Positions 7,307-64,000 of a stretch of 64,000 nucleotides of DNA are shown here, piece by piece (position 1 is the stretch's first letter; the number at the start of each line of letters is the position of its first letter). A program made the translations under genes and the position numbers. The stretch lies in contig CAMVRN010000001.1 of assembly GCA_947169915.1 (NCBI GenBank), forward strand, positions 89,584-153,583, given 5' to 3'. The DNA is from an uncultured Candidatus Saccharibacteria bacterium (GTDB taxonomy: Bacteria > Patescibacteriota > Saccharimonadia > Saccharimonadales > Saccharimonadaceae). The notes under the pieces are model-generated. The model did no database searches. It was not told the origin of the DNA and saw only the letters and a list, made by a program, of their open reading frames with translations.

Positions 7307-9943
7307 CTATTCCGAGCGGAGCGCTTCAACTGGGTCATGTTTCGCCGCTGAGCGTGCTGGGATAAGTCCGCCAATCAATGTCAAAACAATCGACAGGCCA
7401 ACCAAGATAAGTGCGGCGATAGGGTCAAGCGCGGCACGGATATTAACTCCTGACGCGACATGTGCGAGGATTGTGTTTATTATTGGGATAATGAAATAGC
7501 TAATACCAATTCCGAATAGCCCGGCGAGAAGCCCAACAATAAAGGTTTCGGCATTGAAGATGCTTGAAACATTGTGTTTACTCGCGCCGATTGCGCGTAG
7601 AATCCCAATTTCTTTTTTGCGTTCATAGACGGAGATATAAGTGATAATTCCAATCATAAAGCTTGAAACGACTAGTGAAATTGAAACGAAGGCGATAAGC
7701 ACGTAGCTGACCGCATCGACGATAGTGCGGACTGAATCCATCAATATGCCTGTGAGGTCACTATAATTTATCTCTTGCTCTTTGTCATGTTCGTCGTTGT
7801 ATTTTTTAATGAAATTCTTAAAGTTTTCTTTACCCTCAAAACTGCTGAAGTAAAACCAAAGTGAAGAAGGTTCGTTTAGGTCCTGGTAGCCTAGCGACTT
7901 CAAATTGGACTTTTGGTCACGCTCGGTATTGCTCGAAATTGCAGAAATAACCCTGGTGAGTTCTTCTTCTGTAAAATTGAGCGAAAAGGCATCGTCCATA
8001 CTTCCCTGTCCGGCCATAGCTTGCATGAGTTTGCTCTGGTCAACCGAAATAAGGTCAGAAAAGCTATAGTTGAGTTTTCCCTCTTGCTGGTCGAACTTTG
8101 CGCCAGAGAAGACATCGAGTTCTTTATCTTCGAGCTGTTTTCTAACTACATCGGATTTGCTCGCGCGGTTAATAATCTCTTTAATGAGCTCTGGGTTGTA
8201 GTTGACGCCTTGATCTAGAGCTTCAGCTGTAATCCCTTCCTTTGCAGTGATGACTCCGACAACTTTGAGCTTGATGGCTTTCTCTTCGAAAACGGTTTTA
8301 AGATAGTCTTCATCCTCTGACATGTTCTCGTAAACTTCATACTTATCGTTGTACTTGTATAGGTCGCTTGGGACGATAACGCGGAGGTCAAGGTCAAGAA
8401 ACTCTTCATAATCCATCATTATTGGTTCATTCTTAATATCAGATGATTCGCCAGACATTAGTTTCGCAATCAACGTATCGAGTTCAGAAGTATCCCTAAG
8501 GCCCAGTTCGTAGGCAAGAAAATCGCTTATTGTTCCTTCAGCCCCAATGTTCAGAATCACCTCATTATATTCTTCTGGCCAGCGTCCTGCGAGAACTTCA
8601 TATTGGTTCTCAAGAGTTTCGCGGTCATTGGTCAGAGGAAGATAAACCGACATGGCGCTTCCGGTGAAGTTCGTAATAAAATCGCCTCCAAAGGTGCTTG
8701 AGAATGTATCCATCGGGTTTAGTTTAGCGATTCTGTCCGTTGCGTCGACTGCATAAACGAGTGGCTCAATCCCGTAACCTACGGTAATGGATTTAACGTC
8801 ATTTTCGAGTTCGCTTTGATGTTCGTCGTAATATTGTTTGAACGCTTTAAGATCATTGGTCGCGACCGACTTAATGGCACTTTCTAGAATTGGTATCTCT
8901 ACCGTGTCTTTGCCTTTTTCATCGCGGAGTTTTGAACGCTCGGAAAGCACACGTCCTGATTGAGTCGAATCGTCGGTGGTTTGCATGAGGCTAGCCATAG
9001 AAAATGATTCTTCGGTAATCATCAGCGGGTACGAAACCAATACATCTTGTTCAATACTATCAACGTAGTTTTGGAAGCCGGTAGAAACCGCGAGAATGAG
9101 AGCGATACCTATGATGCCAATACTTCCAGCAAAAGAAACTAGGATTGTGCGAGCTTTTTTTGTTAGAAGATTGTTAAAGGATAGACCAAGAGCGGTTTTG
9201 AACGACATGTGTGTTTTCTTAGACTTTTTCTTGATATCTTCGGCATTAAGTCTTGTCATTTTACCGTTATGGACGTGCGAATCGGAAGTTATCTTCCCGT
9301 CTTTGAGACGGATAATCCTAGTTGAATAGTTACGAGCGAGTTCTGGATTATGCGTCACCATAATCACGAGTTTGGTCTTAGAAATATTTTTCAGAATCTT
9401 CATGATTTGTTCGCTGGTTTCGGAATCAAGAGCGCCGGTAGGTTCGTCTGCAAGCAGAATATCTGGGTCGTTTACTAATGCGCGCGCAATCGCAACTCGT
9501 TGCATTTGCCCTCCAGAGAGTTCCGCTGGACGTTTCATCATGTGCTCGCCCAACCCAACTGCTTTCAAGGCAGCGCGAGCGCGAGTGATTCCCTCACGCT
9601 TAGAGATGCCTGAAAGTGTCAATGCGAGACGAACGTTGTTTAAAATCGTCTGATGAGATATGAGGTTGTAGCTTTGAAAAACAAAACCGATGCGGTGGTT
9701 TCTATATGCATCCCAGTTACTATCCTTGAAGTCCTTTGTCGAAACACCGTCAACGATTAGGTCGCCGGAAGTATATTTATCTAGTCCGCCGATAATATTC
9801 AATAGGGTGGTTTTACCGGACCCGGATGGGCCTAGTATACTTGCAAATTCTGAGTCACGAAAAATAAGTGAAACTGAATTTAGGGCACGTTGCTTAAAAG
9901 TGCCAGTCTTATAGACTTTAGTTATGTTTTTTAACTCTAACAC
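7307..9943 (-). CDS. ABC transporter, ATP-binding domain fused to MacB/FtsX-type permease
   Basis: [39 protein letters not shown], then FtsX-like permease with long extracytoplasmic domain. Confidence 0.9.
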
Positions 9944-10039
9944 ATTCTCCTTTTATGTATATTATATATAGTTGTTATGTTTTTGTCGAGCAAGGACGTA
10001 TGCCTTTATTCATGCTATAATGGTAAAAAAGGAGGAATA

Positions 10040-10546
10040 ATGGAAAACGAACAACCAAAAGCTAAAGGTTCAAAAACTATGACTTACGCCATAATCGGTG
10101 TGCTTGCAGTTGCATTGATTGGGGGCGGAATCTTTCTTTTGACCCGCAATAAAGGTGACAACAATGGTGGTAATAGTAGCGATGTTCCAGAAGTTGTTGA
10201 ACCAACCGTTGTTACTGCGGCGGAGCTTAATGGCGAGAGGGCGGTTACGATTGCTTATGGAGATTATGAAGCGATGCAAACGCTTGCAAGTGACATCCAA
10301 AATGGTCGCATGACTGGCAAAATCGTCGAAATTGATGGTATTGTTAGCCACCCAGGTACAAGCTATTCTATTACCGAAGCAAGCGCTGATGGAACTACTA
10401 AAATTGGTACGGTTTTCAATATTAAGGACGGTTCGGCATATCCAGAGGATGGAAAGCGCGCCAGAGTCATTGCAAAAGTTGTTGAAGAAAGTGCTATGAA
10501 TTTCCAGCTTGCAACGCTTAAAGACTTTGTTGAAGAAGTAAAATAA
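10040..10546 (+). CDS. Hypothetical membrane-anchored protein
   Basis: ATG at 10040 preceded by AAGGAGG; N-terminal TM helix. Confidence 0.65.
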   Translation: MENEQPKAKGSKTMTYAIIGVLAVALIGGGIFLLTRNKGDNNGGNSSDVPEVVEPTVVTAAELNGERAVTIAYGDYEAMQTLASDIQNGRMTGKIVEIDGIVSHPGTSYSITEASADGTTKIGTVFNIKDGSAYPEDGKRARVIAKVVEESAMNFQLATLKDFVEEVK

Positions 10547-10561
10547 AATAACAAGCAGACT

Positions 10562-10588
10562 AAAATCCAGCCCTTCGGGGCTGGTTTT
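10562..10588 (+). terminator. Intrinsic terminator hairpin
   Basis: ccagcccttcggggctggtttt. Confidence 0.65.
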
Positions 10589-10593
10589 CGATA

Positions 10594-10627
10594 AAAAAAG
10601 AAAGACCTAAAGGTCTTTATTTTTTTC
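10594..10627. terminator. Hairpin with A/T flanks (bidirectional terminator candidate)
   Basis: aaaaaaagaaagacctaaaggtctttattttttt. Confidence 0.6.
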
Positions 10628-10628
10628 T

Positions 10629-10718
10629 TGGTGCGCCTGACTAGACTCGAACTAGCACAGCACTAAAATGGCCACTACCACCTCAAGGTAGCGTGTCTAC
10701 CAATTCCACCACAGGCGC
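10629..10718 (-). tRNA. tRNA-Leu(GAG)
   Basis: Class II tRNA with long variable arm; anticodon loop TTGAGGT; acceptor GCGCCTG/CAGGCGC; CCA encoded. Confidence 0.92.
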
Positions 10719-10778
10719 ATAATCTGTTAAAGATACCTTTTGATATTATATCACACTTATTGAGATTTTTGCAAGGAA

Positions 10779-12506
10779 TTACGGGGTGCGGTTCTTCGTA
10801 ATTTTCTCGACACCCCAGAAGCGAACATCCACAAAGCGGTCAGTTGAGACAACGAGCGAGTTATCTTCAGAAAATGGTTTTACGTTTTTGTCAAAGTAGT
10901 AGCTTAGGTTAACTTGATATAAGCCGATTGCAGGCGCGTCTTCAATCCATCTAGAGACGAATGATTCGTATTTTTGAGTACGAGCATCTTCATCTACCGT
11001 TTCCCTTGCAGAAATAATCAAATCGTCCGCAACCGAGTTGCTGTAGTTGGAGAGGTTTAGCCCGGTTTGGCTTGCCTGTGAAGAATGATAATAGACGAGA
11101 AGGTCTGGATTGGCGCCGAGTTCAACCTCGTATATCAACATGTCGTAATTGCGGTTCGCAATGATGTTAACTAAGAAGTCTTGCCCTGGGTCCTCAACGA
11201 CACGAACTACTTCAAATCCAAGGTTCTCAAGTTGCTCTGCGACGTCTTCTAGGATGATTGGGAAATATCCTGTAGAAATTGTAGCAAGACGGACGGTCTT
11301 TTTGTCGATACCGGCGACCGTATCTTTTGCAAGGGCAATGTTCTTCGCTGGAAGTTCCGGCCATTCGTCGAGATTGATTTGGCTCTTAAGTATTGGGTAA
11401 TCGAGCGGGTGCTCATCACCTATAAGCGAACGAATTTCCGAGACATCTATCCCTGCTTGGACAGCTTTGCGGACGTCACGATTTTTGAATATTCCACTCT
11501 TTGAGTTCATAAATAGGTACACACCAGAGTTGATGGCGGTTTGTTTTTCGTAGAGATTCTTTGATGCAATTTCTTCTGAATCGGTCGGCAATAGTTCAGC
11601 CGTGGCAGAAACTGCACCTTTCTTGATTGCATTTTTGATGTCTTCAGTCGTTAGGTAGGCGTGGACGACAAAACTGTTGATTTTTGGAACCCCTTTGTAA
11701 TAGTTCTCGTTCGCAACAAGATAGACGATAGACTCGCCACTAGTGCCAATAGACTGTTGTGCGTTATAGCTAAATGGACCTGACGAAATCGGATTAGTGC
11801 TGAAACTCGACTCGAGCAAAGTCATAGAATCGGCACCGTCTAGGGCATGCTTTGGAAGAATTGGAAAATCCAAGGCTGTATTAAATTCGGCGTAAATGGC
11901 TGGTAAATCAAAGACGATTTCATTTTTTTCGTTAACACTAACTTTCACGTTGTAAAGATTTGAATAGTATGAAGAAACTTGACCGAGGCCACTGATTAGG
12001 TTGGCCGTAAAGACTACGTCTTCTGCTGTGATTGGCTCTCCGTCGGACCATTTTAATCCGTCGCGGAGTTTCACGGTCCATGTTCTCGCTGAAGAATCTG
12101 ATTTCACATATTCCGCCAAAACATTCCCGACGTGCCCAGAAGAATCGGCGGCGGTTAGGCCTAGGAACATTAATTTCGATAAGGTTTTTTCACTGTTCGT
12201 TGTGGCAAAGAGCGGATTCAATGAGCTGACTTTTCCGAGAGTGGCTTCGGTGTAGGTACCTCCGTTCGTAAAGCCGGTCGTAGAGTATGAATCGTTAAAC
12301 CAAAAGCTCTGGGTTAAAGCGAGCATGAATAGAGCGAAAACGAGAAGTCCCCATTCTAGAACGAATAGACGGACGTCGCTGATGTGCGAAAGACGTCGTA
12401 CAACATTCTTTTTAATGTGAGCTTCGCTAGAAATAACTGCGTCTTCAGAAAGACGAGAAAACTTCCTTAATGCTTTTTGCCCACTCTTTTTAGAAAATAG
12501 TTTCAT
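10779..12506 (-). CDS. Family 5 (oligopeptide-type) extracellular solute-binding protein
   Basis: N-terminal TM; SBP_bac_5-like: TWTVKLRDGLKWSDGEPITAEDVVFTANLI... Confidence 0.85.
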   Translation of the reverse strand: MKLFSKKSGQKALRKFSRLSEDAVISSEAHIKKNVVRRLSHISDVRLFVLEWGLLVFALFMLALTQSFWFNDSYSTTGFTNGGTYTEATLGKVSSLNPLFATTNSEKTLSKLMFLGLTAADSSGHVGNVLAEYVKSDSSARTWTVKLRDGLKWSDGEPITAEDVVFTANLISGLGQVSSYYSNLYNVKVSVNEKNEIVFDLPAIYAEFNTALDFPILPKHALDGADSMTLLESSFSTNPISSGPFSYNAQQSIGTSGESIVYLVANENYYKGVPKINSFVVHAYLTTEDIKNAIKKGAVSATAELLPTDSEEIASKNLYEKQTAINSGVYLFMNSKSGIFKNRDVRKAVQAGIDVSEIRSLIGDEHPLDYPILKSQINLDEWPELPAKNIALAKDTVAGIDKKTVRLATISTGYFPIILEDVAEQLENLGFEVVRVVEDPGQDFLVNIIANRNYDMLIYEVELGANPDLLVYYHSSQASQTGLNLSNYSNSVADDLIISARETVDEDARTQKYESFVSRWIEDAPAIGLYQVNLSYYFDKNVKPFSEDNSLVVSTDRFVDVRFWGVEKITKNRTP

Positions 12507-12507
12507 G

Positions 12508-12735
12508 TTATGCTGGAATTAATAATAGCCCCATAATCGACATGACAAAGATAACCGCAAAAATAATGGTGGCGTTAAAGAGAGATTTATCGATGCCGCG
12601 CCTAGTAGTGTATAATTCGCCGGTTCCACCCAAGCCAGCGCCAAGAGATGCTCCGCGTTGTTGAAGTAGGATAAGTAAGACAACTAGAACTGCCGAAACA
12701 ATAATTGAGATTTGAAAAATGGAAACTAGATTCAT
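12508..12735 (-). CDS. secG: Preprotein translocase subunit SecG
   Basis: 75 aa, two TM helices, LLQQRGASLGAGLGGTGELYTTRRGIDK motif. Confidence 0.9.
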   Translation of the reverse strand: MNLVSIFQISIIVSAVLVVLLILLQQRGASLGAGLGGTGELYTTRRGIDKSLFNATIIFAVIFVMSIMGLLLIPA

Positions 12736-12777
12736 GATGATTCTATTATAAGAGATTCGGACCGAGTTTTCAAGGAT

Positions 12778-14064
12778 TTAATTATTTCCAAGCTGTCGCT
12801 TGCGTTTCAGAAGGGTGTGGTATGTGATAGCAAAGCGATGCGCCTCTTCATCTATGCGCGCAATTAGGCGAGAAATGTGCGAGTCTTTAGATAGCTCAAT
12901 AGTTTGGAACCCTTGGCTAGTAGGAACGACGATTTTGACGATGGCCGATTTTGAATGGTCGCCGGATTTGTCACGGCCAATAACCGGAATAGTAGCGCTG
13001 TCTTTTACTGCTTGGAGTAAGGGGAGCACACTCGCAACTTGAAGCTCGCCACCGTCTAAGATTATTAAATCTGGGTACTTCCAAGAAGGGTGTTTTAGGC
13101 GCCTTGTTATAACTTCTTGAAGACTAGCAGTGTCGTTATTTTGTTGCTTTTTAAGCTTGAATTTACGATATTCCGAGCGGTCAGACACGCCATTCGTGAA
13201 TACAACCATCGAGGCAACAACATCTTGGCCCGATTGATGAGATATATCGTATCCTTCGATTCGGCGAGGTGGTTCTGGAAGATGCAACATTTTCTGAAGT
13301 TGGAGCAGAGCTTGGTCGGATGATATGTCTAAGAATTCCTTGTCCGAGAAAACAATTCTCTTTTTCAATCCTTTGAGCCCAAAGAGTTCGTTTCGGAGTT
13401 CTGCTGCTCGCTCGTAATTCCCCTTTTTCGCCTCCTCTTTCATCTCATGTTCTAGGTCCTTCAATAGTTTCTGACGGTCCCCTTCGAGGTAGCGAATTAG
13501 GTTGTTGAGGATTTTATGGTAATCCTTTGGTGTCATCTTGCCGATTTCAATTCCTGGCGTGAGTCCTAGATCGGTATCGAGTGTCTTTTTCCCGCTATAT
13601 GGTTTGTCATAGAATGGGAAAATTTTTCTTAGAATACGAAGTGCTGTCGCGATAGTGTTTTTCGCATAGAACGGACCAATATAACGAGCGTCATCGCCAA
13701 GGTTATTGCGAGTCATTGAGACATCAGGGACTTCCGCTTTCGTGTTAATGCGGACAAAACAAACATTCTTATCGTCCCGAAGAAGGATATTCCATTTTGG
13801 CATATAACGCTTTATCATTTCACTTTCAAGAAACAGCGCATCCATTTCGGTATCTACAACAATCCAGTCGGTCATATAGATTTCTTCAACAAGTGCAGCT
13901 GTTTTTGGGTCGCGGTCCTTTGGGTTTTGAAAATATTGACGGACGCGGTTTTTTAAAACGGCTGCTTTTCCGACGTAGATTATTTCGCCAGCCTTGTTTT
14001 TATGAAAGTAAACGCCAGGAGCTGACGGGAGAGTTTTTAGCTTTTGCTTTAACGCATCGTTCAT
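12778..14064 (-). CDS. uvrC: Excinuclease ABC subunit C, short form
   Basis: GIY-YIG domain (SAPGVYFHKNKAGEIIYVGKAAVLKNRVRQYF), UVR motif, RNase H-like domain (EGYDISHQSGQDVVASMVVF); no C-terminal HhH region. Confidence 0.9.
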   Translation of the reverse strand: MNDALKQKLKTLPSAPGVYFHKNKAGEIIYVGKAAVLKNRVRQYFQNPKDRDPKTAALVEEIYMTDWIVVDTEMDALFLESEMIKRYMPKWNILLRDDKNVCFVRINTKAEVPDVSMTRNNLGDDARYIGPFYAKNTIATALRILRKIFPFYDKPYSGKKTLDTDLGLTPGIEIGKMTPKDYHKILNNLIRYLEGDRQKLLKDLEHEMKEEAKKGNYERAAELRNELFGLKGLKKRIVFSDKEFLDISSDQALLQLQKMLHLPEPPRRIEGYDISHQSGQDVVASMVVFTNGVSDRSEYRKFKLKKQQNNDTASLQEVITRRLKHPSWKYPDLIILDGGELQVASVLPLLQAVKDSATIPVIGRDKSGDHSKSAIVKIVVPTSQGFQTIELSKDSHISRLIARIDEEAHRFAITYHTLLKRKRQLGNN

Positions 14065-14085
14065 TAACTATATTATATACTATTT

Positions 14086-14607
14086 CTAATCTTCATCGGC
14101 TTTTAGAGAGTTATGATACTCAGAAATAAGTTCGCTCAAAGACTTATATTCTTCAGGAGCCTCAATAAGTCTGCTGAAGCGTTCCAACGAGTAGTTTTGT
14201 GATAAACCAAAGATTCTTTTGAGCTCCGCAATGCTTTCGTCGTCTACCTCGACGTACGATTCGCTTAGTCTAGCGGCAAGAGTAACTTTACATTCGATTT
14301 CGTAGAGTTCATCTTTTGACAAGTATTCGGCAATGTTTTGATATTCCTCTTCTGGGACGCCAAGTTTCTTGAGTTTTGCTTCGGTTTGGCTTTCTATCAA
14401 GTCTAGAAAACCGCTGAATAGAAAATAATTAGCTTCTTCTAGTGGAACATCGACGCCAACGTTTGTCTCGACTGATGATGGGCGGTCATTTACGGAGGTT
14501 GGGAGACGGTCTAGAATGAGGATTATCAAAATAACAACAAGTACCGCTAGGGTGATTCGTAGCGGGCGGAGTCGTTTGGATTTTTCCGGATTCATTTTCT
14601 CTGTCAC
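14086..14607 (-). CDS. Hypothetical membrane-anchored protein
   Basis: ORF from GTG at 14607 with N-terminal TM; TATAAT 7 nt upstream of the GTG. Confidence 0.6.
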   Translation of the reverse strand: MTEKMNPEKSKRLRPLRITLAVLVVILIILILDRLPTSVNDRPSSVETNVGVDVPLEEANYFLFSGFLDLIESQTEAKLKKLGVPEEEYQNIAEYLSKDELYEIECKVTLAARLSESYVEVDDESIAELKRIFGLSQNYSLERFSRLIEAPEEYKSLSELISEYHNSLKADED

Positions 14608-14671
14608 TCAGGTCATTATATCATAGTTTTAGCCCTACAAACTTTGGCGATAGTTTGGTATAATAATGCTT

Positions 14672-15952
14672 ATGAATAATTTTACAATTTCTAATATAAA
14701 AGCGAGGCAGATTCTAGATTCACGCGGTAATCCAACAGTTGAGGCGGATGTGTTTTTGGAATCTGGACAGGCGGGTAGGGCGGCCGTGCCGTCTGGCGCG
14801 TCGACTGGGTCAGGAGAAGCACTTGAGCTTCGCGACAATGACTCGAAATTCTACGGCGGAAAGAGCGTCTTAAAAGCCGTCTGGAATGTTAATTCTAAAA
14901 TCAAAGATGTACTCGTCGGAAATAGTGCCGAACAGGCAGTCGTTGACCAAATCATGTTGGACCTTGATGGAACCGCAGATAAGTCTCATCTCGGTGCAAA
15001 TGCAATTTTAGCCGTTTCCCTCGCGACCGCAAAGGCGGTTGCGCGTGCAAAGAAGCTCCCGTTTTACGCCTACGTCGCGGAGCTTGCTGGAACGATGGAC
15101 GAAATGTCTTTACCTCTACCAATGATGAACGTCATGAACGGTGGTGAGCATGCGGATTGGGCGACCGATTTTCAGGAATACATGATTATTCCAAAAGGCG
15201 CAGAAAATATCGCCGATGCCGTTCGAATGGGCGCAGAAGTGTTCCATGCTTTGAAAGCCGTGCTCAAAGAGCGCGATTATCCTGTTACCGTTGGTGACGA
15301 AGGTGGATATGCGCCAAAGGTCCGCGATGGAAACAACGAGCCTCTCGAGTGTATTAAACTTGCTATCGAGCGTGCTGGATACAAACCTGAAAAGGATATC
15401 GCGATGGCGATGGATATCGCAAGTTCCGAATTTTTCGACAAAGACCATTATGTATTGAAGACGAATGGCGAGTGGAAGTCCGCCGATGATTTAACGAACT
15501 GGTATTCATGGATTATTGAGAACTATCCAGTAGTTTCAATCGAAGACGGTCTAGCCGAAAATGACTGGGAGGGATGGAAGATGATGACTTCTCGGCTTGG
15601 CGATAAAATCCAGCTTGTCGGTGATGACTTATTCGTGACAAATACAAAGCTTCTTAAAAAAGGCATAGATGAAAAAGCTGGTAACTCCATCTTGATTAAA
15701 CCAAACCAAATTGGTTCGTTGTCTGAAACAATTAATGCAGTAATGATGGCAAAGAAAGCTGGGTTCCGTACAATCATCTCTCACCGTTCTGGTGAGACTG
15801 AGGACGTTTCCATCTCTCATATCGCAGTTGGGCTTGGAGCTGGCCAGATTAAAACTGGTTCTCTTTCTCGAAGCGAGCGCATCGCAAAGTACAATGAGCT
15901 CATTCGTATTGCCGAGGCGAACTCTCGACTTGGGCTTGCAAAACCATTCTAG
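14672..15952 (+). CDS. eno: Enolase
   Basis: Full-length; [57 protein letters not shown]. Confidence 0.97.
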
Positions 15953-55421: not shown

Positions 55422-55498
55422 GGTCCGGTAGCTCAGCTGGTTAGAGCACGAGCCTCTTAAGCTTGGTGTCGAGGGTTCGAGTCCCTCCCGGATCACCA
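55422..55498 (+). tRNA. tRNA-Lys(CTT)
   Basis: Cloverleaf; anticodon stem CGAGC/GCTTG with loop CTCTTAA; TGGTATAAT promoter upstream; CCA encoded. Confidence 0.93.
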
Positions 55499-55813
55499 AC
55501 AGGTAATTTGGCCTGTTTTTACGCCTGAAATTAGAGTCTGAAACGGTTCTTTATGTCTGTAAAGGACCGTTTTTTGTTGGTCAATTTCGAGGTTCAAGAA
55601 ATTTTCGGCAGTTAGCTTTGATTTGCTTGGATCCACGATTTTCTCGTTAATTTCCGTTAGCTCATCATCCAGCTTTGCCATTTCTAATTGCCTTGCATCA
55701 ATTTGCTGTTTGATGCGGTCTTTGGCCGGTTTAGGCGCATCCTTGCCGAGTTCAGTATATTGCTCGGCAAGTGCGTCTATCTGGCGTTGTTTGTTATTCT
55801 TTTTGGCCTGCAT
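55493..55813 (-). pseudogene. Probable truncated C-terminus of a large serine recombinase
   Basis: Charged coiled-coil (RQIDALAEQYTELGKDAPKPAKDRIKQQIDARQLEMAKLDDELTEIN..KLTAENFLNL) typical of recombinase C-terminal region; stop codon lies inside the tRNA-Lys acceptor end. Confidence 0.45.
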
Positions 55814-55996: not shown

Positions 55997-56515
55997 ATGG
56001 CAAGCATAAAAATACAATTAAACCAATCGTTTATAGAAGTATCTGGCAGCGAGGACTTCGTGAAAGAGCAGTATGAGGAGCTTATAAAAAAATGCCACTT
56101 CTATGAGAGAGCAGAACATGAAGGAATCTACTCATCTAGCCATGAACAAGAAAATGGGAAAAGTGCTGGGCTTGTTTACGTTGAAAAAGATCTAGAAAAC
56201 TTCTTTTCTATAAATGAAAACGGCATCGTTAATATTAACATGCCTGTTCCAGGAAACAATAAAGCTGAAAGGATTAAAAGCTTAGTACTATTGATTGGAT
56301 ATGCAAAGAGGGATGAATGGATACCTTTTGCGGCTATTGCCGAGGAATGCAAAAGACAAGGCTGCTGGGATTCGAAAAATTTCGCATCTTATATCAAGCA
56401 ACTTGGCTCGAATGTCATGATAAACGGAAAAAACAAAAATAAATCCGTTAGGTTGACAGCAGTTGGTATAGAAGCGGCTAAGAATAAGATTAAAAGAATG
56501 TTTGGAGAGGACTAA
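55997..56515 (+). CDS. Uncharacterised cassette protein A: SIKI-type N-terminal domain + winged-helix-like C-terminus
   Basis: MASIKIQLNQSFIEVSGSEDFVKEQYEELI...; C-term NFASYIKQLGSNVMINGKNKNKSVRLTAVGIEAAKNKI. Confidence 0.7.
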   Translation: MASIKIQLNQSFIEVSGSEDFVKEQYEELIKKCHFYERAEHEGIYSSSHEQENGKSAGLVYVEKDLENFFSINENGIVNINMPVPGNNKAERIKSLVLLIGYAKRDEWIPFAAIAEECKRQGCWDSKNFASYIKQLGSNVMINGKNKNKSVRLTAVGIEAAKNKIKRMFGED

Positions 56516-56518
56516 ATT

Positions 56519-57298
56519 ATGAAAGATGATATTGAGAATCTATTAGATGGCTTACCTGTTGAATTAGTACAAAGGTTAATAGATAGGTATGAAAAAGCAT
56601 CTTTAGCTTATTGCTATAATAATTGGTCTAATCTTTTTTCTGAAAGTGGTTGTTTTTCGGAAATTGTGTTTCGCTTAACGCAGTGGCATTGTTTTGGCAA
56701 ATATACGGAAATCGGTGAGCGTCTAGAAGATTTCAATATAGATGCTCTTAGAAAATTCGAAAGCACGTCAAAACAAAAGGCGCCAGATGAGTGGAGAATA
56801 ATTATTCCTCGCGTGTTATTCGCGATGCGTCAATTCAGAAATGCTCGTGGCGACATGCACGAAACTTTAATTAGCCCTAATTTTATCGATTCGGAATATA
56901 TCTATTCTAGTATGGAGTGGTTACTTTGCGAAATATTGAGGCTAAAATCAGGCAAAAGTCGGGAAGAGATTAACTTGGTTATCAAAAAGATTGAAGCGCA
57001 TTACGCACCAATGGTGTGGGATAGTGGAACTACAATGAGGGTACTTTCCACCAAGTTGAGTTGTCGCGACCAAGTGTTAGTTTTACTCTATAGCTGCCAA
57101 GAGGCACAAACAGTAGAAGAGCTGTTACGTGAAACAGAGTATGTTTCAAAAAGCAGGTTTAGGAGTACTATTTTGGGAGAGTTACACAAACAGCGGCTTA
57201 TCGAATATGATGGCGAAAAATGTAAAATCTCACCATTAGGCATTATCGAGGCAGAAAAAATAATTAAAAACTGGATGGAAAAAAATGGAAAAGAATAA
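56519..57298 (+). CDS. Uncharacterised cassette protein B: HEPN-like motif + winged-helix-like C-terminus
   Basis: FAMRQFRNARGDMHETLISPNF (R-N-x5-H); C-term SKSRFRSTILGELHKQRLIEYDGEKCKISPLGIIEAEKII; 3 nt after gene A stop. Confidence 0.7.
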   Translation: MKDDIENLLDGLPVELVQRLIDRYEKASLAYCYNNWSNLFSESGCFSEIVFRLTQWHCFGKYTEIGERLEDFNIDALRKFESTSKQKAPDEWRIIIPRVLFAMRQFRNARGDMHETLISPNFIDSEYIYSSMEWLLCEILRLKSGKSREEINLVIKKIEAHYAPMVWDSGTTMRVLSTKLSCRDQVLVLLYSCQEAQTVEELLRETEYVSKSRFRSTILGELHKQRLIEYDGEKCKISPLGIIEAEKIIKNWMEKNGKE

Positions 57299-57818
57299 TT
57301 TTTTATCAATTAAGATCAAGCTTGGTGCTGCGGAATTTGAAGCTAAGGGGCCTATTGAGGATGTGAAAGCTTCAAGGGATTCTTTTCTGGGCTTCATTAA
57401 GGAATGCTCAGAACAGTTACCTTTGTTGCATACTGACTCTAGAATGATAGCAGAGACCTCTCAAGACGGCGCTATCATTGAAAATAAAGAAATTGATTCA
57501 AATCATGACATATCCTATAGTTCTTTTAATGAAATGAAACGCAAGTTAAACTTATCCAGTAATACAGACCTTGTTATGGGGGCAGCTTATTATTTAAGTA
57601 CTCATGAGGGAATGGGGACGTTTACTTCGCAAGATATAAAGGAGCTTTTCCAAAGAACAAAGAATAGAACAAAAATTAATATTTCCCAATTCATAGCACA
57701 AAATATAAGCAAAGGGTTAATCGAGGAAGTGGGGATGTCTGATAAAAAACAAAAAGAATATCAAATATTAGACTCTGCAAATGAATGGCTGCAACAACTA
57801 GGAAAAGCAAAAGACTAA
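57285..57818 (+). CDS. Uncharacterised cassette protein C: paralogous N-terminal domain to protein A + winged-helix-like C-terminus
   Basis: LSIKIKLGAAEFEAKGPIEDVKASRDSFLGFIKE aligns with protein A N-term; starts inside the end of gene B. Confidence 0.7.
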   Translation: MEKNNFLSIKIKLGAAEFEAKGPIEDVKASRDSFLGFIKECSEQLPLLHTDSRMIAETSQDGAIIENKEIDSNHDISYSSFNEMKRKLNLSSNTDLVMGAAYYLSTHEGMGTFTSQDIKELFQRTKNRTKINISQFIAQNISKGLIEEVGMSDKKQKEYQILDSANEWLQQLGKAKD

Positions 57819-57854: not shown

Positions 57855-57995
57855 TTATTCGCTCGCGATTAAATCTCCCACCACATTAATGTTTTGCATA
57901 AGAGCATTTAGGCGTTCAACGATACGTTTTTGTCCAGCTAGCGGCGGCAGCGGCATAATCGTAGCAATGATTTTTTCTTTTGAAATGTTTGGTTG
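57855..57995 (-). pseudogene. C-terminal remnant of a type I restriction S subunit (HsdS)
   Basis: QPNISKEKIIATIMPLPPLAGQKRIVERLNALMQNINVVGDLIASE* fused in frame to a signal-peptide-like MRMKKKIIIIASIVAVLCAAGAA. Confidence 0.75.
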
Positions 57996-58063
57996 AGCAG
58001 CGCCGGCCGCACAAAGTACGGCGACGATGCTAGCTATAATGATTATTTTCTTTTTCATACGCA

Positions 58064-58290
58064 TTAGTACGGGTGCTTGCGTTCGGGAGTTTTACTGGCA
58101 AGTTTGGTGCCGACGATTGTGATGATACTAGACAGGGCATCGCTGAGGTTATTGATGGTATCGGAGATAAATAATTGCGATGGAAGTTTGAAAGGAAACC
58201 GACGATTGCCTTAAAACCGACTAGTAGCAGGTTTGCGCAATTGCTGATGAGGCTGGTTTTAACGACGACTTTTTCACGGTGGGGTTTCAT
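58064..58290 (-). pseudogene. Frameshifted N-terminal fragment of a cation diffusion facilitator (CDF) transporter
   Basis: Frame 1 KTSLISNCANLLLVGFKAIVGFLSN; continues in another frame as ISDTINNLSDALSSIITIVGTKLASKTPERKHPY*. Confidence 0.8.
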
Positions 58291-58291
58291 A

Positions 58292-60202
58292 TTATTTATT
58301 GGCAATTTCTTGAAGTGCTAAGTTTAATAGTTTTATGTTGAATTCTCTGTTATTTGATGATAACTCCCAAGTATTCTGATTGACGTCAGCGAGCTTTCGT
58401 TCTGGAAGGTTGAGTGTTTGGATTTTTTCGTTTTTATAGTATTCTGAACCGTCTGCCAATGACTGAATTAAATATTCCCAGTTTGAGCCTAGGACTTTTC
58501 TGGCGTTTTTGTATTTTTCCAGTTTATCTTTAATTTCATCTGAGTTGGCAGAGGAATTCATTTGTTTATCTAATAGACTAAGGTTTTCAAATCTAAATCT
58601 TTCAGTATCAAAATCTTCGGGTCTAAAGAATTTGTTTTTCTTACTTTGCCAATTAGATAATCTATCAGAATTTTCATATTCTAATACACTATATAAATGC
58701 TCAATAGAAAAGTTCTCGCCAGCTAGAATGTATTGCAAATATTCGCTGAAGTCATGAGAATTATCGGCAGTTTTGTCCAGAAAACTTTCTTGACACCCCA
58801 TGACTACTTTTATTAGTCTTGAATAATCTTTAATATTGATATTTGAGACGTTTTTGTGGTCATTGTAGTTTAAATTGAAGATGTCTTCAATGGCGATGTT
58901 TGTTAAAATATCTAAAATTGAATTATTGTATTCACCTTTTTCGTTGACAGATATATTATCAATTAACCCTATTGTTCTTTTAGTGCTACTGCGAATGTAA
59001 TTCCAGATGAGAGTAAGATTTATTCGTTTAGATATAGTATTGAGCTCGTCTAACGAAATTGCGTTGGTGCCAGGATTGTATATATCATTATTGCCTGAAT
59101 AGTCGTGTCTTGTTTTGAACAGTTCGGTCAAGATTTTTAGTATATCTGAATATTTCTCGTATTGAAGTAATACCCAGGATAGATATAATGAAGAGCTTGG
59201 GTCTAGGCCAATATCCATGTTGGCGAAGTATTTGTAAATCGTTTCAAAATCAGATAAGTATTGGACGAATTTTTCAGTAAACTCTTTGGCTTTTATAGCG
59301 TCGTTAAATACCTCGTTTTTATAGAAAGACATCCATTTGCCTACGCCGGTTTCTGGAAGTGTTAAGATATTGTTATCGTTTTTATAATAGGCGTTGAGGA
59401 AAATATAGATAACATTATTGATGCCGTGCTTGTCACGGTCTTCACCGTAAGCTTTATAATCTTCTAAATCTGTACTTAAGCCAGGATAATTGGCGATTTT
59501 GGCAATTTGTTGCTTGATTTCAAAGATGTTATCTCCGGTTTCTGCTAGCCTGATAGATTGAGAGAGAATGGAATAAAAAATGTCAGCTTGGGTTAATTGA
59601 ATAGATAAGGAATTGATGTTTAGAAAGTATTTCAGAGATTCGCTGATGTTACTATACTCTAACGAAATAAGTTTTACATTGTTTAGAATGTAGTTATAAA
59701 GGCCATCATACCAGCTTTCCTGATATCCACTCCAGGCATTATCTATTTGACTATTAATTCTGTCTATGGTTTTGGATATATCAACACTATAGCCTTGTGA
59801 ATTGAAATGATTTTCTAGACCGAGGTTGTATTTTAATTCTTCTGTTAAGTAAAATTCTTCCTGAAGGACGAATTCGTCATCGGAAAATAGTAATTTTGCG
59901 TTAATATCTTTAACCTCGTCGGAGCATTTTTGAGAGAGGATGGACAAGATGAGGATTAAACTCGTCAAACGTTGCTGACCGTCAATAACGTCATTGACTT
60001 TGGCTGAGCAGAAAGCCAAAGTGCCAATAAAGTAGTCGGATGAAGGGTTGTTTTTATACTGGCTAAATATATCATCTATAAATTTGTAGAGGTTTCTACC
60101 ATCGTTTTCCTGACCCCAGACATAATCTCTTTGATAATATGGAACGTTTATAATCTTATATTTGTTAAAGATTTCTTTTACGCTAATAAAATCATGCTTC
60201 AT
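58292..60202 (-). CDS. DUF262/GmrSD-like protein
   Basis: NVPYYQRDYVWGQE...DVIDGQQRLTSLILILSIL (DUF262); C-terminal FSIEHLYSV...FENLSLLDKQMNSS...KLEKYKNA resembling a divergent DUF1524. Confidence 0.88.
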   Translation of the reverse strand: MKHDFISVKEIFNKYKIINVPYYQRDYVWGQENDGRNLYKFIDDIFSQYKNNPSSDYFIGTLAFCSAKVNDVIDGQQRLTSLILILSILSQKCSDEVKDINAKLLFSDDEFVLQEEFYLTEELKYNLGLENHFNSQGYSVDISKTIDRINSQIDNAWSGYQESWYDGLYNYILNNVKLISLEYSNISESLKYFLNINSLSIQLTQADIFYSILSQSIRLAETGDNIFEIKQQIAKIANYPGLSTDLEDYKAYGEDRDKHGINNVIYIFLNAYYKNDNNILTLPETGVGKWMSFYKNEVFNDAIKAKEFTEKFVQYLSDFETIYKYFANMDIGLDPSSSLYLSWVLLQYEKYSDILKILTELFKTRHDYSGNNDIYNPGTNAISLDELNTISKRINLTLIWNYIRSSTKRTIGLIDNISVNEKGEYNNSILDILTNIAIEDIFNLNYNDHKNVSNINIKDYSRLIKVVMGCQESFLDKTADNSHDFSEYLQYILAGENFSIEHLYSVLEYENSDRLSNWQSKKNKFFRPEDFDTERFRFENLSLLDKQMNSSANSDEIKDKLEKYKNARKVLGSNWEYLIQSLADGSEYYKNEKIQTLNLPERKLADVNQNTWELSSNNREFNIKLLNLALQEIANK

Positions 60203-60210
60203 ATATCCTC

Positions 60211-61482
60211 CTAGTATTGATATGTATAATTATCTATTAATTTTTGATTGTAATTGACTTTGCCTGATAAATAGAGATAGGAAATATAATTGATGGCTAG
60301 AGTATAATGTCTGCCGTTTTCTTCCCAAATATAATCTTCGCCTGCGGCAACTTCTAGACAGGGGAGGAGGATGATTTCGCGTCCGACTCTCGTAGAATTG
60401 GGCAACCAACTGTAATTGTATATACCGTTGCGACATACTTTCGTAATGGTTTTTGCTAGAAATAGATTGAGTTCCTTGCTGCTATTCATCTCCTTTTTTA
60501 ATTTTTCCTGTTTTGCGATTAGCCTAAAAACGCTTCCGTGTGTGTCCATCAAAACAAAATCGTAGTCGTGATAGAAGCATAGGCCAAAATGCATTGAATA
60601 TGTAAGATAATTATTCATTTTTTTTAATTCAGTTTCGCTATTTTTCTCTAGAAATCCCGATATGCCGTTGTTTTTCTCACTTTGCGTAATCAGCGCTATA
60701 GGGTGTTCATTGTCTTTTTCATTGGATATGTTCAGTGCTTTTTTGTTGGTAGATAGCTGATTTCTACTATCAAAAACAAAAAGTGAATCAAGTGAGAAAC
60801 TTTTCCAAGAAACTAGTGGTTTTTCTTTTAGGTATTCTGCTTCATATTTTGCTTTTTCTGCTTCATATTTTGCTTTTTCTGCTTCATACAGGCGAATGGT
60901 TTTTTGTTCGCGTAATTCTTTGGCTTCGTCCATTAACTTTTTGATATAGTCCACGGCTAAAGTATAATGTCTGCCGTTTTCTTCCCAAATATAATCTTCG
61001 CCTGCGGCAACTTCTAGACAGGGGAGGAGGATGATTTCGCGTGGGAATGTATCTTTAGTCACTGCATATGTTTGGTTGAAAATGCCATTTGCAAAGATGG
61101 TCGTGATAATGGTGGCAGCAAATTGCGCACACTGTTTATTATTGACAAATAATTCTTTTAGTTTTTCATTTTTATAGTGTAGTAATGCATTATGTCCTGT
61201 GGAGACGATATCGTAGTCGTGGTAGAAGCAAGTTCCTGCTCCACCATTTCCATTTGATGCTATTGTCAAATAATTACTTACTTTCTTTTGAAGTATTTCA
61301 TTGTCAATTGGTAGATAATTGACTATTCCATTATTGAATTTTCCAGCTGTAACATTTGCTATATATCCTTCTGTTGGCTTGCTAACTGGGTTATACTGTT
61401 TTGCTGTTTTGGATAGTTTATGAGCTCCGCTCAATTCAAATAGGTTATCCAGTCTAAATGCTTTCCAAATAACTTCGCTCAT
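60211..61482 (-). CDS. Restriction-modification specificity (S) subunit with duplicated half-domains
   Basis: Two halves each W+F+LDNLF/LDSLF...; both contain EIILLPCLEVAAGEDYIWEENGRHYTLA; EAEKAKY heptad repeats between. Confidence 0.88.
   Translation of the reverse strand: MSEVIWKAFRLDNLFELSGAHKLSKTAKQYNPVSKPTEGYIANVTAGKFNNGIVNYLPIDNEILQKKVSNYLTIASNGNGGAGTCFYHDYDIVSTGHNALLHYKNEKLKELFVNNKQCAQFAATIITTIFANGIFNQTYAVTKDTFPREIILLPCLEVAAGEDYIWEENGRHYTLAVDYIKKLMDEAKELREQKTIRLYEAEKAKYEAEKAKYEAEYLKEKPLVSWKSFSLDSLFVFDSRNQLSTNKKALNISNEKDNEHPIALITQSEKNNGISGFLEKNSETELKKMNNYLTYSMHFGLCFYHDYDFVLMDTHGSVFRLIAKQEKLKKEMNSSKELNLFLAKTITKVCRNGIYNYSWLPNSTRVGREIILLPCLEVAAGEDYIWEENGRHYTLAINYISYLYLSGKVNYNQKLIDNYTYQY
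60301..60382. repeat. 82-bp exact direct repeat, copy 1 (within S subunit gene)
   Basis: agtataatgtctgccgttttcttcccaaat...gatttcgcgt identical to 60961-61042. Confidence 0.97.
60836..60888. repeat. 21-bp tandem repeat, ~2.5 copies (encodes EAEKAKY heptads)
   Basis: tctgcttcatattttgctttt x2 plus partial. Confidence 0.95.
60961..61042. repeat. 82-bp exact direct repeat, copy 2 (within S subunit gene)
   Basis: Identical to 60301-60382. Confidence 0.97.
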
Positions 61483-61484
61483 TG

Positions 61485-62969
61485 TTAGTCCTCGCTCAGA
61501 ATATTGACAATGTATTTTTCAAACGAGCCATCTTCGTCTTTGAAGTTATTATTTGCTTCATCTATAAGTTTCTGCTTTTCGGATAACATCTTTTTAATGG
61601 TAATATTTTCCAGCGTAATGTCAGCTTCTTCTTTGTCGGTCTTGATTCGGCTTGGATTAATTTGGGCGACAATCTCAAGTTCTTTATTTACTTCGTAGAA
61701 ATTGTTCCAGTTTCTGACGAATTGAGAGCTTGTAGTTTCAACTGATTTATTTTTCATTTTCTCAAAAAGTTCTTTTTTCTTTTTTTCATAGGTATGGTTC
61801 TTATCTACGAGACCGCTATCTTTCAAATAAATATAGCCAGTGTCTGTAAAATTGTAATACCTAATCTTATCGTCGGCAGAGTGTGGTTTATCTACGTTAA
61901 AGACAAAAATTGAAGCTGGCTGAGATTTGCCGCTGTCGGTAAACAAATCGTCTTGCATTTTAATGACGGATTCTAAAGTAGCGATATTTAAAATTCTTGA
62001 GAAGATGTCTTTTTTCTGACCAAATTTTTGTGGAGGAATAATTACGATAACCTTGGTGCCAGTCTCTGAATTTCCACTAATTAGTGAGATGTTTTTTTCA
62101 ACGATTTCTAGTGGTTTGTATTTGTCTTCGTAAGGGGGATTAAGGATTGCTTTGGTTGGCTGAATTCTTTCTTCTTGTTCTCCATTTTTAATTTTGAAGG
62201 AGGACTTTTCTAGTTTTAAAACATCTTCATTAAACAATAAGTGGTAGTTTAGTGATTTTAGTAGGAAATTAGCGAGACACAAGGTGACCATTTTTGAATC
62301 TACGTCACTCGCAATGATAGAGTTGTAGAGCTTTTTCTGATATTTGTTGTATTCTTCTTGGGTGATTAACTTGTTTGAAAGATCTTTATTCATGTCATTT
62401 AGCATTTTAGAATAGGAGAGCAAAGAGAATAGTCCAGTACCGCTACACAAATCAGCTATGATATCTTTTTTGTAATCTATATCTGCCAGGTCAATCATTA
62501 GTTGGGCTGCGAATACGGGAGTTAAGACGATACCGTCATCGCCAGTTTTGGCTTTTTTGTCTATTTCCATATAAAGGGTCTCAAAGAACAAATCTGATGG
62601 TTTGATGATGATGAAATCTTTTGAGATGAAATCCTCTACGAATTTTTTGAATTCTTTACGATTGCTGTCTAATTTCGTGTTGACACCTGCGATAGTTTGT
62701 AGTGAATCAAAGATGGCTGCTTTTGTTTTTGGGAGTAGGTTGAGGCTCTCAATGCCTTGTTTGGCCAGACTGATTAATTGATCGATTGGTCTAGTCTTTT
62801 CATCTGTGAAATTAATAATTGATGTCAGCTTATTGACGTTTTGAAAATCTGTATTGGTTTTTAGACAGAAAATAAGCATTGCGATAAAAATAGTTTTACT
62901 GTTTCTATTTATTTCTGGATCTAATTCATAAATACGTTGATTAAGGCTTTTGATTTGACGTAGTTCCAT
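61485..62969 (-). CDS. N6-adenine DNA methyltransferase (HsdM-like)
   Basis: IIADLCSGTGLFSLLSYSKM; AILNPPYEDKY (NPPY). Confidence 0.9.
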   Translation of the reverse strand: MELRQIKSLNQRIYELDPEINRNSKTIFIAMLIFCLKTNTDFQNVNKLTSIINFTDEKTRPIDQLISLAKQGIESLNLLPKTKAAIFDSLQTIAGVNTKLDSNRKEFKKFVEDFISKDFIIIKPSDLFFETLYMEIDKKAKTGDDGIVLTPVFAAQLMIDLADIDYKKDIIADLCSGTGLFSLLSYSKMLNDMNKDLSNKLITQEEYNKYQKKLYNSIIASDVDSKMVTLCLANFLLKSLNYHLLFNEDVLKLEKSSFKIKNGEQEERIQPTKAILNPPYEDKYKPLEIVEKNISLISGNSETGTKVIVIIPPQKFGQKKDIFSRILNIATLESVIKMQDDLFTDSGKSQPASIFVFNVDKPHSADDKIRYYNFTDTGYIYLKDSGLVDKNHTYEKKKKELFEKMKNKSVETTSSQFVRNWNNFYEVNKELEIVAQINPSRIKTDKEEADITLENITIKKMLSEKQKLIDEANNNFKDEDGSFEKYIVNILSED

Positions 62970-62989
62970 TTAAGCTCCTTGATTTAGTA

Positions 62990-64000
62990 TTATTCTTCAG
63001 ATTCTTTTTGGACTGGGATGTAAACCTTTTTTAGAGGGAACATATCGCGATATTTTTCATCTAACTTATCGTAATATTCCAGAAATAGTTTTACAAACTG
63101 GACACCATTAATACCTCTAATGATTGGGTTTTGTTCTAGATAATCTTTTGCATCTTTTGAATAATCTGAAAGGGCGACAAAGAATCCGTAATCTCCTTCA
63201 CGTAATGAACCTTTTAAGTTCCGGATGAGAGGCGATGAAATCTTTGAGTCTTGGCTTTTGGCTTGAACAACAATTCTTGGTGGCAGTTGTAATTCTCCTT
63301 GATAAGCAACGATGTCTTTACCTTCATCGCCCCCATGTTGTGAAATTTTTGTTCTATACCCCATTGCCTCTAATACATTTGCAACAAGTTCTTCGAAATC
63401 ATAGCCTTTAAGCTGTCTACTAATTTCTTTGATTATAAAATCTGTTGTGCTTTCTTGAATTTCTTCAGCTGTTACAGCTACGCTTTCGTCTTCTTCTGAA
63501 ATATCATTCACGACGTTGTTTTCTATGGCGGCCATGAATTCGTTCGCGTAGTTTTTTACCGTAAAAAGAGTTATAAAAGACCCAATTTCGTATAGTGCGC
63601 CTTGAGAAAAAGCGGTTCTTGGAAGTTGCTTGAGCCATTTTACTTTTCTTTGATGTACATAGTGGTTTGCTTTGCTATTAAAAGTGTAATCGCTTTCTAC
63701 TGTACCTATATTAATCATACGGTCACTTTTAGAAGGAAAAACTACATAATCACCAATTTGCATTTCGCAGGTAAATCTAAATAGAGTTCCGGAATTAGTA
63801 GCAATATTGCCTTTCTTAGCGTCTGGGTAGGTTGAGGTATATTTTTCTCGGAATGCGTCTCGGTTTTTTTCTACATTAGATAAATCACCGATTTTTTCCC
63901 AACCTATGGCAAGTGTATTTCTTTGCAGAAACAGATCATCGTTTATTTCTGGAGTGTGAATGCCCCAAATGTGTTTTTCTTCCATTATTTCGTTATTCAT
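62990..64000 (-). CDS. Mrr_cat-type restriction endonuclease with N-terminal PUA/EVE-like domain
   Basis: LEAMGYRTKISQHGGDEGKDIVAYQGELQLPPRIVVQAKSQ; N-term HIWGIHTPEINDDLFLQRNTLAIGWEKIGDL...GDYVVFPSKSDRMINIGTVESDY; ATG coincides with window edge. Confidence 0.85.
   Translation of the reverse strand: MNNEIMEEKHIWGIHTPEINDDLFLQRNTLAIGWEKIGDLSNVEKNRDAFREKYTSTYPDAKKGNIATNSGTLFRFTCEMQIGDYVVFPSKSDRMINIGTVESDYTFNSKANHYVHQRKVKWLKQLPRTAFSQGALYEIGSFITLFTVKNYANEFMAAIENNVVNDISEEDESVAVTAEEIQESTTDFIIKEISRQLKGYDFEELVANVLEAMGYRTKISQHGGDEGKDIVAYQGELQLPPRIVVQAKSQDSKISSPLIRNLKGSLREGDYGFFVALSDYSKDAKDYLEQNPIIRGINGVQFVKLFLEYYDKLDEKYRDMFPLKKVYIPVQKESEE

Follow-up and report, generated by a model that had tools for sequence, protein, structure and literature searches.

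Three small genes on the plus strand (A, B and C), located at the edge of a tRNA-borne island in an uncultured Saccharibacteria bacterium, form a real gene set which is widely scattered in bacteria and was previously undescribed. According to the best reading of the data, to which we assign a probability of roughly 55%, the central protein B is a HEPN RNase effector that is restrained by wHTH partner proteins and released by a signal, leading to growth arrest as a defence. From the gene set itself, the conserved pairing of B with its partners, the HEPN motif and fold resemblance of B and the defence-type neighbourhoods of its relatives, we infer an RNase activity, its inhibition, a trigger and a role in immunity. 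Judged by sequence, the trio qualifies as a good candidate for an immune system or toxin-antitoxin module not described before.

Gene organization and the island edge

The window, i.e. the whole stretch of 64,000 nucleotides that was analysed, is the terminal part of contig C1 in a genome of 0.77 Mb made up of 12 contigs, and this contig stops inside the island. The same genes are carried by another genome (G562) of the same taxonomic family. The features of the island edge and of the trio are listed in Table 1.

Table 1. Features at the island edge and within the three-gene set (positions are those of the window; residue numbers are those of the respective protein).
Feature	Position	Strand	Description	Evidence
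tRNA-Lys (CTT)	55422-55498	+	Island boundary	ARAGORN and Rfam
C-terminal remnant of large serine recombinase	55493-55813	-	106 aa	tblastn against the L051 recombinase
Gene A	55997-56515	+	172 aa; putative divergent partner protein; beta-hairpin/helix-like module (3-30), linker, wHTH-like C-terminal domain (about 91-170; nt 56267-56506)	ORF
Gene B	56519-57298	+	259 aa; predicted RNase effector; all-helical HEPN-type N-terminal domain (1-160), C-terminal wHTH (182-256)	ORF
B motif Ex3[KR]	56660-56674	+	Codons E48-R52	Alignment of 22 sequences; definition from PMC3710099
B motif Rx6H	56837-56860	+	Codons R107-H114 (RNARGDMH)	Alignment of 22 sequences
C-terminal wHTH of B	57062-57286	+		AF2 secondary structure; weak MarR-type wHTH matches (Foldseek, hmmsearch)
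Gene C	57285-57818	+	177 aa; partner protein, gene-2 type; N-terminal beta-hairpin/helix module (7-41), linker, C-terminal wHTH (about 77-171)	ORF

As the original prediction had described, the three genes are tightly packed open reading frames, with a gap of 3 nt between A and B and an overlap of 14 nt between B and C. A good ribosome-binding site (AAAGGAGAAAGCCAATATG) precedes gene A. The single promoter that had been placed ahead of the trio was not borne out, as 8 promoter-like sites were found against 7.9 expected and none of them is upstream of A. No model in Pfam, NCBIfam, PADLOC or PHROG was matched above cut-off by A, B or C; the weak library matches to DUF6034, Inhibitor_I24, ATP synthase delta and a MazF-like PHROG were judged to be chance and rejected.

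The location at an island edge, also part of the original prediction, is confirmed by the tRNA-Lys, the serine recombinase remnant and a drop in G+C content from about 0.44 to 0.31-0.39. The trio starts ~500 bp downstream of the tRNA, and the remnant shares 35% identity (tblastn, E 1.4e-18) with the L051 recombinase, which adjoins the same tRNA. At L051 and at two other loci from congeners (L049 and L053), the orthologous tRNA is directly followed by a large minus-strand serine recombinase, and the tRNA-Lys site serves as a hotspot for insertions in general. At L050, the FolD/MurB synteny upstream is retained and no recombinase was seen. An attachment repeat was not identified, the tRNA region having elsewhere in the genome only a paralogous tRNA-Lys and pieces of 19-22 bases.

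Downstream of the trio, the minus strand of positions 58292-64000 encodes GmrSD-type, HsdS-like, IIG-type/HsdM-like methylase and Mrr-type proteins, the last of which matches PADLOC PDC-S02 at E 3.5e-126, and this restriction cluster runs off the contig. Because the tRNA-Lys edge, the recombinase remnant, the G+C drop and the restriction genes occur together, the trio is regarded as cargo of a restriction island, carried at its edge. A short ORF on the minus strand (57855-58064, PLPPLAGQKRIVERLNALMQ) resembles the C-terminal end of HsdS and is possibly a pseudogene fragment.

Gene B encodes a probable HEPN-type protein

Both its motifs and its modelled fold indicate that B probably belongs to the HEPN superfamily. 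HEPN proteins have been defined by an Rx4-6H motif, in which a polar residue follows R and a spacer of six residues is allowed, together with Ex3[KR] (Anantharaman et al. 2013, PMC3710099). B carries both motifs as well as a predicted four-helix bundle, the fold being assigned by ranking. The RNARGDMH segment, which had been proposed to fit this pattern, reads R107-N/S108-x5-H114, i.e. Rx6H, in 20 of 22 sequences.

The AlphaFold2 (AF2) model of the window protein (15-row alignment, mean pLDDT 80.9, pTM 0.60) has N-domain helices at residues 2-8, 14-32, 36-59, 69-82, 90-109, 122-144 and 148-158, followed by a wHTH composed of helices 182-193, 199-206 and 211-224, strands 228-231 and 234-237, and helix 239-256. 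As predicted from the sequence alone, the RNARGDMH segment is found between helices, at the loop joining helix 90-109 to helix 122-144. Since whole-chain Foldseek was dominated by the wHTH, the N-domain was folded separately, and that of the central relative L013 shows the same helices at a pTM of 0.80, with the motif again between the last two long helices. When this domain was compared with the PDB by Foldseek, the archaeal HEPN protein 2hsb was the only listed match with a probability above 0.5 (probability 0.84, TM 0.52 by query and 0.67 by target), and a second HEPN protein (1wol) was also in the list. No HEPN match was significant by E value (best HEPN E 1.8), so the fold is supported by ranking only.

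Profile searches with the HEPN family models of Pfam, NCBIfam and PADLOC gave zero matches to the window B, and PF05168 (HEPN) reached 0.034 in one of 16 homologues. Only weak MarR wHTH matches were obtained for B among PDB sequences (phmmer and profile), and nothing convincing came from a viral fold library. New HEPN families often come to light with no HEPN family model matching them significantly. The HEPN assignment of the original prediction is supported by motif conservation in 22 sequences, by helical topology and by the HEPN fold match (AF2, Foldseek).

Distribution and conservation of the B family

Single-sequence and profile searches led to the identification of 22 B loci, i.e. the window and 21 others, distributed in Patescibacteria, Proteobacteria, Bacteroidota/Ignavibacteria, Acidobacteria, Planctomycetes and one haloarchaeal plasmid. 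The single-sequence search found one relative among 100 related genomes and a match on a Natronomonas plasmid (E 3e-4); a three-sequence profile found relatives in two further Patescibacteria and at 14 GTDB loci, which belong to Bradyrhizobium, Mesorhizobium, Rhodopseudomonas, Tardiphaga, Trinickia, Oxalicibacterium, Terrimonas, Ignavibacteria, Acidobacteria, Phycisphaerae and Saccharibacteria; and a 16-sequence profile detected B in 7 of 294 Saccharimonadales genomes and in 3 of 382 genomes of a phylum sample. The closest relative of the window protein comes from a Bradyrhizobium MAG (L006). By tblastn, B and one relative had no match in phages, and A, B, C and their relatives matched among plasmids only the Natronomonas plasmid and, partially, Halorubrum.

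Seven residues (E48, R110, H114, D124, W134, E138 and R141) are invariant in all 22 B sequences. Position 108 is N or S throughout, R107 is present in 20 sequences, and position 52 is R or K in 16. In the remaining two sequences (L004 and L005) R107 is replaced by Ala, which counts against the effector reading and means that either R110 substitutes for it or these members are inactive. The alignment suggests that the arginine which this family cannot lose may be R110, not R107, a departure from the usual spacing. The loss of R107 in two relatives, the wHTH-like ends on all three proteins and the housekeeping surroundings at several loci (see below) would also suit a catalytically dead HEPN protein, which binds RNA or nucleotides and serves as the scaffold of a wHTH transcription-regulator complex. 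We consider this improbable, as a dead site would not be expected to keep H114, R110 and E48 unchanged in all 22 sequences, which come from several phyla. The chances appear somewhat better than even that B represents a previously undescribed family of HEPN endoribonuclease effectors, the RNase activity being predicted from the motif.

Between L013 and L014, the B genes differ by 46 synonymous and 9 non-synonymous substitutions and the partner genes by 27 and 8, respectively, and both genes are under purifying selection.

The wHTH partner genes

Of the 20 loci with a visible upstream side, 19 have a small gene on the same strand immediately ahead of B, its wHTH nature being judged mostly by eye in three of them (L005, L018 and L019), and the stop and start codons of partner and B overlap at many loci. 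The usual partner has an N-terminal beta-hairpin/helix (consensus similar to MSKFRIKxKLxGxELEIEGSREDV), which a loose linker connects to a C-terminal wHTH. Two partner genes are present ahead of B in four Saccharimonadales (L023, L024, L025 and L026), a single fused partner with two wHTHs is found in the Saccharibacteria loci L016/L017, and a coiled-coil-like segment takes the place of the beta module in L004 gene 2, in L005 and in L024 gene 1. This variation in partner number and subfamily, as well as the Natronomonas B, for which no partner was recognised, counts against the effector reading.

At L035 (10021-12082; also at L005), a B that is devoid of R107 is preceded by three to four small ORFs, of which several begin with a coiled-coil-like segment; these ORFs are possibly expanded sensor modules.

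The wHTHs of gene-1 and gene-2 partners align with each other at E 1.8e-5 (hhalign), and a 'C-like' partner HMM reaches other partner subfamilies at E 6e-9 to 7e-4. A partner wHTH HMM made without the window proteins recovered C at 62 bits (E 9.2e-19 among 443 ORFs), its next-ranked matches being the wHTHs of the B proteins themselves. Similarly, a gene-2 profile from which C was absent retrieved C genome-wide at E 6.9e-6, and the N-terminus of C was matched by an HMM from other loci at E 7.7e-5. C is a clear member of the wHTH partner family by these comparisons. The same gene-2 profile was matched in 5 of 294 Saccharimonadales genomes, all of them B-positive, in a small set of which four of five were seeds; among these 294 genomes the C-type partner co-occurs with B only, in accordance with its proposed association with B.

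Protein A appears to be a distant and the most divergent member of the partner family. It was matched by the partner wHTH HMM at E 0.059-0.7 and, at its N-terminus, weakly by the partner N-terminal HMMs (E 0.06-0.15; shuffle p 0.002 for A and C), and its match to DUF6429 (2.6e-6), a family that no paper names according to our literature search, is below cut-off. BLASTP aligned A with the gene that immediately precedes B in L006 (E 2e-5) and gave no significant alignment of A with C (E 0.61); a profile of A plus the L006 gene found no additional A among 284 genomes. The original prediction, in which A and C are paralogues with a shared beta-alpha N-terminus and all three proteins end in wHTH domains, therefore stands in part. 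The paralogy holds for the partner family as a whole, and direct comparison of A with C does not demonstrate it; the shared N-terminus is found in C and only weakly in A; the wHTH ends hold for B and C, with remote evidence (DUF6429 and the L006 gene) for A.

The proposed partnership of A and C with a HEPN effector is supported by the co-localisation of B and a wHTH partner across distant phyla. As for conservation of the trio elsewhere, B with wHTH partners is conserved, and the A-B-C order with a central B was seen at the window locus only, the partners preceding B at the others.

The two-gene wHTH-HEPN layout, with an antitoxin-like gene first and overlapping stop and start codons, would also be expected of a plain type II toxin-antitoxin system, in which the upstream wHTH protein is antitoxin and autorepressor, B is a HEPN toxin, the second wHTH protein is a co-repressor, and the whole serves island maintenance, not phage sensing. 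The position of the trio on a tRNA-borne island and the plasmid-borne relative point in the same direction. However, two different wHTH partners with fold-swapping N-termini, a gene C downstream of a toxin that has its own wHTH, and embedding within a type I R-M operon (see below) are unusual for a minimal toxin-antitoxin pair, and the distribution of the family is not plasmid-rich, so that this alternative seems rather unlikely to us.

Genomic neighbourhoods of B relatives

In L034 (G417), hsdR, hsdM, two partner genes, B, a gene for a 193-aa protein and hsdS follow one another on one strand; this stretch (7716-15170) belongs to another Patescibacterium, and the 193-aa protein, which has no Pfam match, is thus encoded together with a trio between hsdM and hsdS. 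Other relatives adjoin a C5 methylase, EcoRII and Vsr (L033), an Eco57I-type methylase (L035), a methylase-Mrr fusion (L007), a SIR2-STAND protein (L010), an AbiEii-like AAA ATPase (L011), an FRG protein (L019) or an NTase-HEPN pair (L018). Housekeeping surroundings in which no defence neighbour was seen were found at L008, L013, L014, L016/G562, L023/G520 and L024/G610, and these count against a defence role. Taken by gene content, the neighbourhoods fit a defence or toxin-antitoxin role for the trio.

The two-gene relatives of Rhizobiales in L008 and L014 adjoin lepA, which suggests long-term retention at one site.

Both these lepA-linked copies and the use of the tRNA-Lys site as a general insertion hotspot would be compatible with an ordinary housekeeping or mobile-element regulator, which plays no part in conflict and whose restriction neighbours merely reflect shared insertion hotspots. 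Such a regulator is very improbable in light of the very patchy spread of the family, both in the order (7/294 genomes) and in the phylum sample (3/382), and of its occurrence inside hsd and beside SIR2/EcoRII systems at unrelated loci.

Proposed mode of action

If B is an effector held in check by its partners, A and C would be its regulatory partners, and the three genes would constitute one cargo module of the tRNA-Lys island. The partners may oligomerise via exchangeable N-terminal modules, i.e. a beta-hairpin/helix here and a coiled coil or helical hairpin elsewhere, and contact B either wHTH to wHTH or via the N-terminal module; this contact would hold a HEPN dimer of B inactive. Then, B would be freed either when the partners are lost or when a nucleic-acid or protein signal from an invader acts on the wHTH array, and it would cut RNA via R107/R110 and H114 and thereby stop growth. 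The outcome would be immunity of the abortive-infection or toxin-antitoxin type.

A wider and more tentative reading, which we hold to be somewhat short of an even chance, is a modular immune system present across phyla, in which a constant HEPN-wHTH effector is combined with exchangeable wHTH sensors that read the nucleic-acid state of the invader. These sensor proteins would number one to several and may be separate, duplicated or fused.

The B family is a HEPN-type family that standard libraries have missed, and it comes with a defined and testable set of partners. Saccharibacteria have very small genomes, and the trio, if the proposed role is true, would be a new defence-type module for this group.

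Comparison with known systems

The libraries and literature that we searched describe no such gene set, in agreement with the original prediction that the layout corresponds to no named system. Among the closest known systems are the HEPN superfamily RNases (PMC3710099), which have in common with B the helical bundle, the Rx4-6H motif with a polar residue after R, and Ex3[KR]; like the B set, they are frequently found in R-M neighbourhoods, and toxin-antitoxin or abortive-infection roles are assigned to them. Unlike B, no HEPN family in Table 1 of that study is given two wHTH genes as dedicated partners, and the only wHTH fusions reported there, EC042_2821 and MTES_1575, are in proteins with REase or helicase domains.

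In MNT-HEPN modules, a small HEPN protein is likewise paired with a small partner gene; the partner is a nucleotidyltransferase in those modules, whereas it is a wHTH protein for B, and the true NTase-HEPN pair in L018 is a separate module beside the B relative. CARF-wHTH (Csa3-type) regulators resemble the trio in linking wHTH regulation to HEPN RNases of conflict systems, but no CARF domain was found in the trio, for which only a local match of 0.012 over the wHTH was obtained. The layout of the two-gene B relatives is compatible with type II toxin-antitoxin systems as far as gene order goes.

The type IX retron Kva2 consists of a WH protein, a HEPN protein, a reverse transcriptase (RT) and msDNA (PMC13405049, preprint). 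In this retron, nucleic acid is bound by the WH protein, and the dimeric HEPN protein stays sequestered up to the point at which a phage protein binds the sensor DNA and triggers it (PMC13405049). As in the trio, a winged-helix protein is encoded in the same operon as a HEPN RNase. However, the Kva2 HEPN lacks the canonical motif and uses the distant H64/R122 (PMC13405049), whereas B has Rx6H and, unlike the Kva2 HEPN, carries its own wHTH. No reverse transcriptase was present in the ORF listing around the trio or noted by eye near its relatives, Rfam found only the tRNA near the trio and no msr/msd RNA, and the PADLOC retron models had zero matches to B. Membership in type IX retrons was therefore rejected, as no RT or retron RNA was found in the ORF listing and the Rfam search, the active site differs and no retron model matches B. 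By analogy, it is plausible that B works like a type IX retron; if the wHTH partners are sensors, the trio would parallel the winged-helix/HEPN logic of these retrons in a form that dispenses with the reverse transcriptase.
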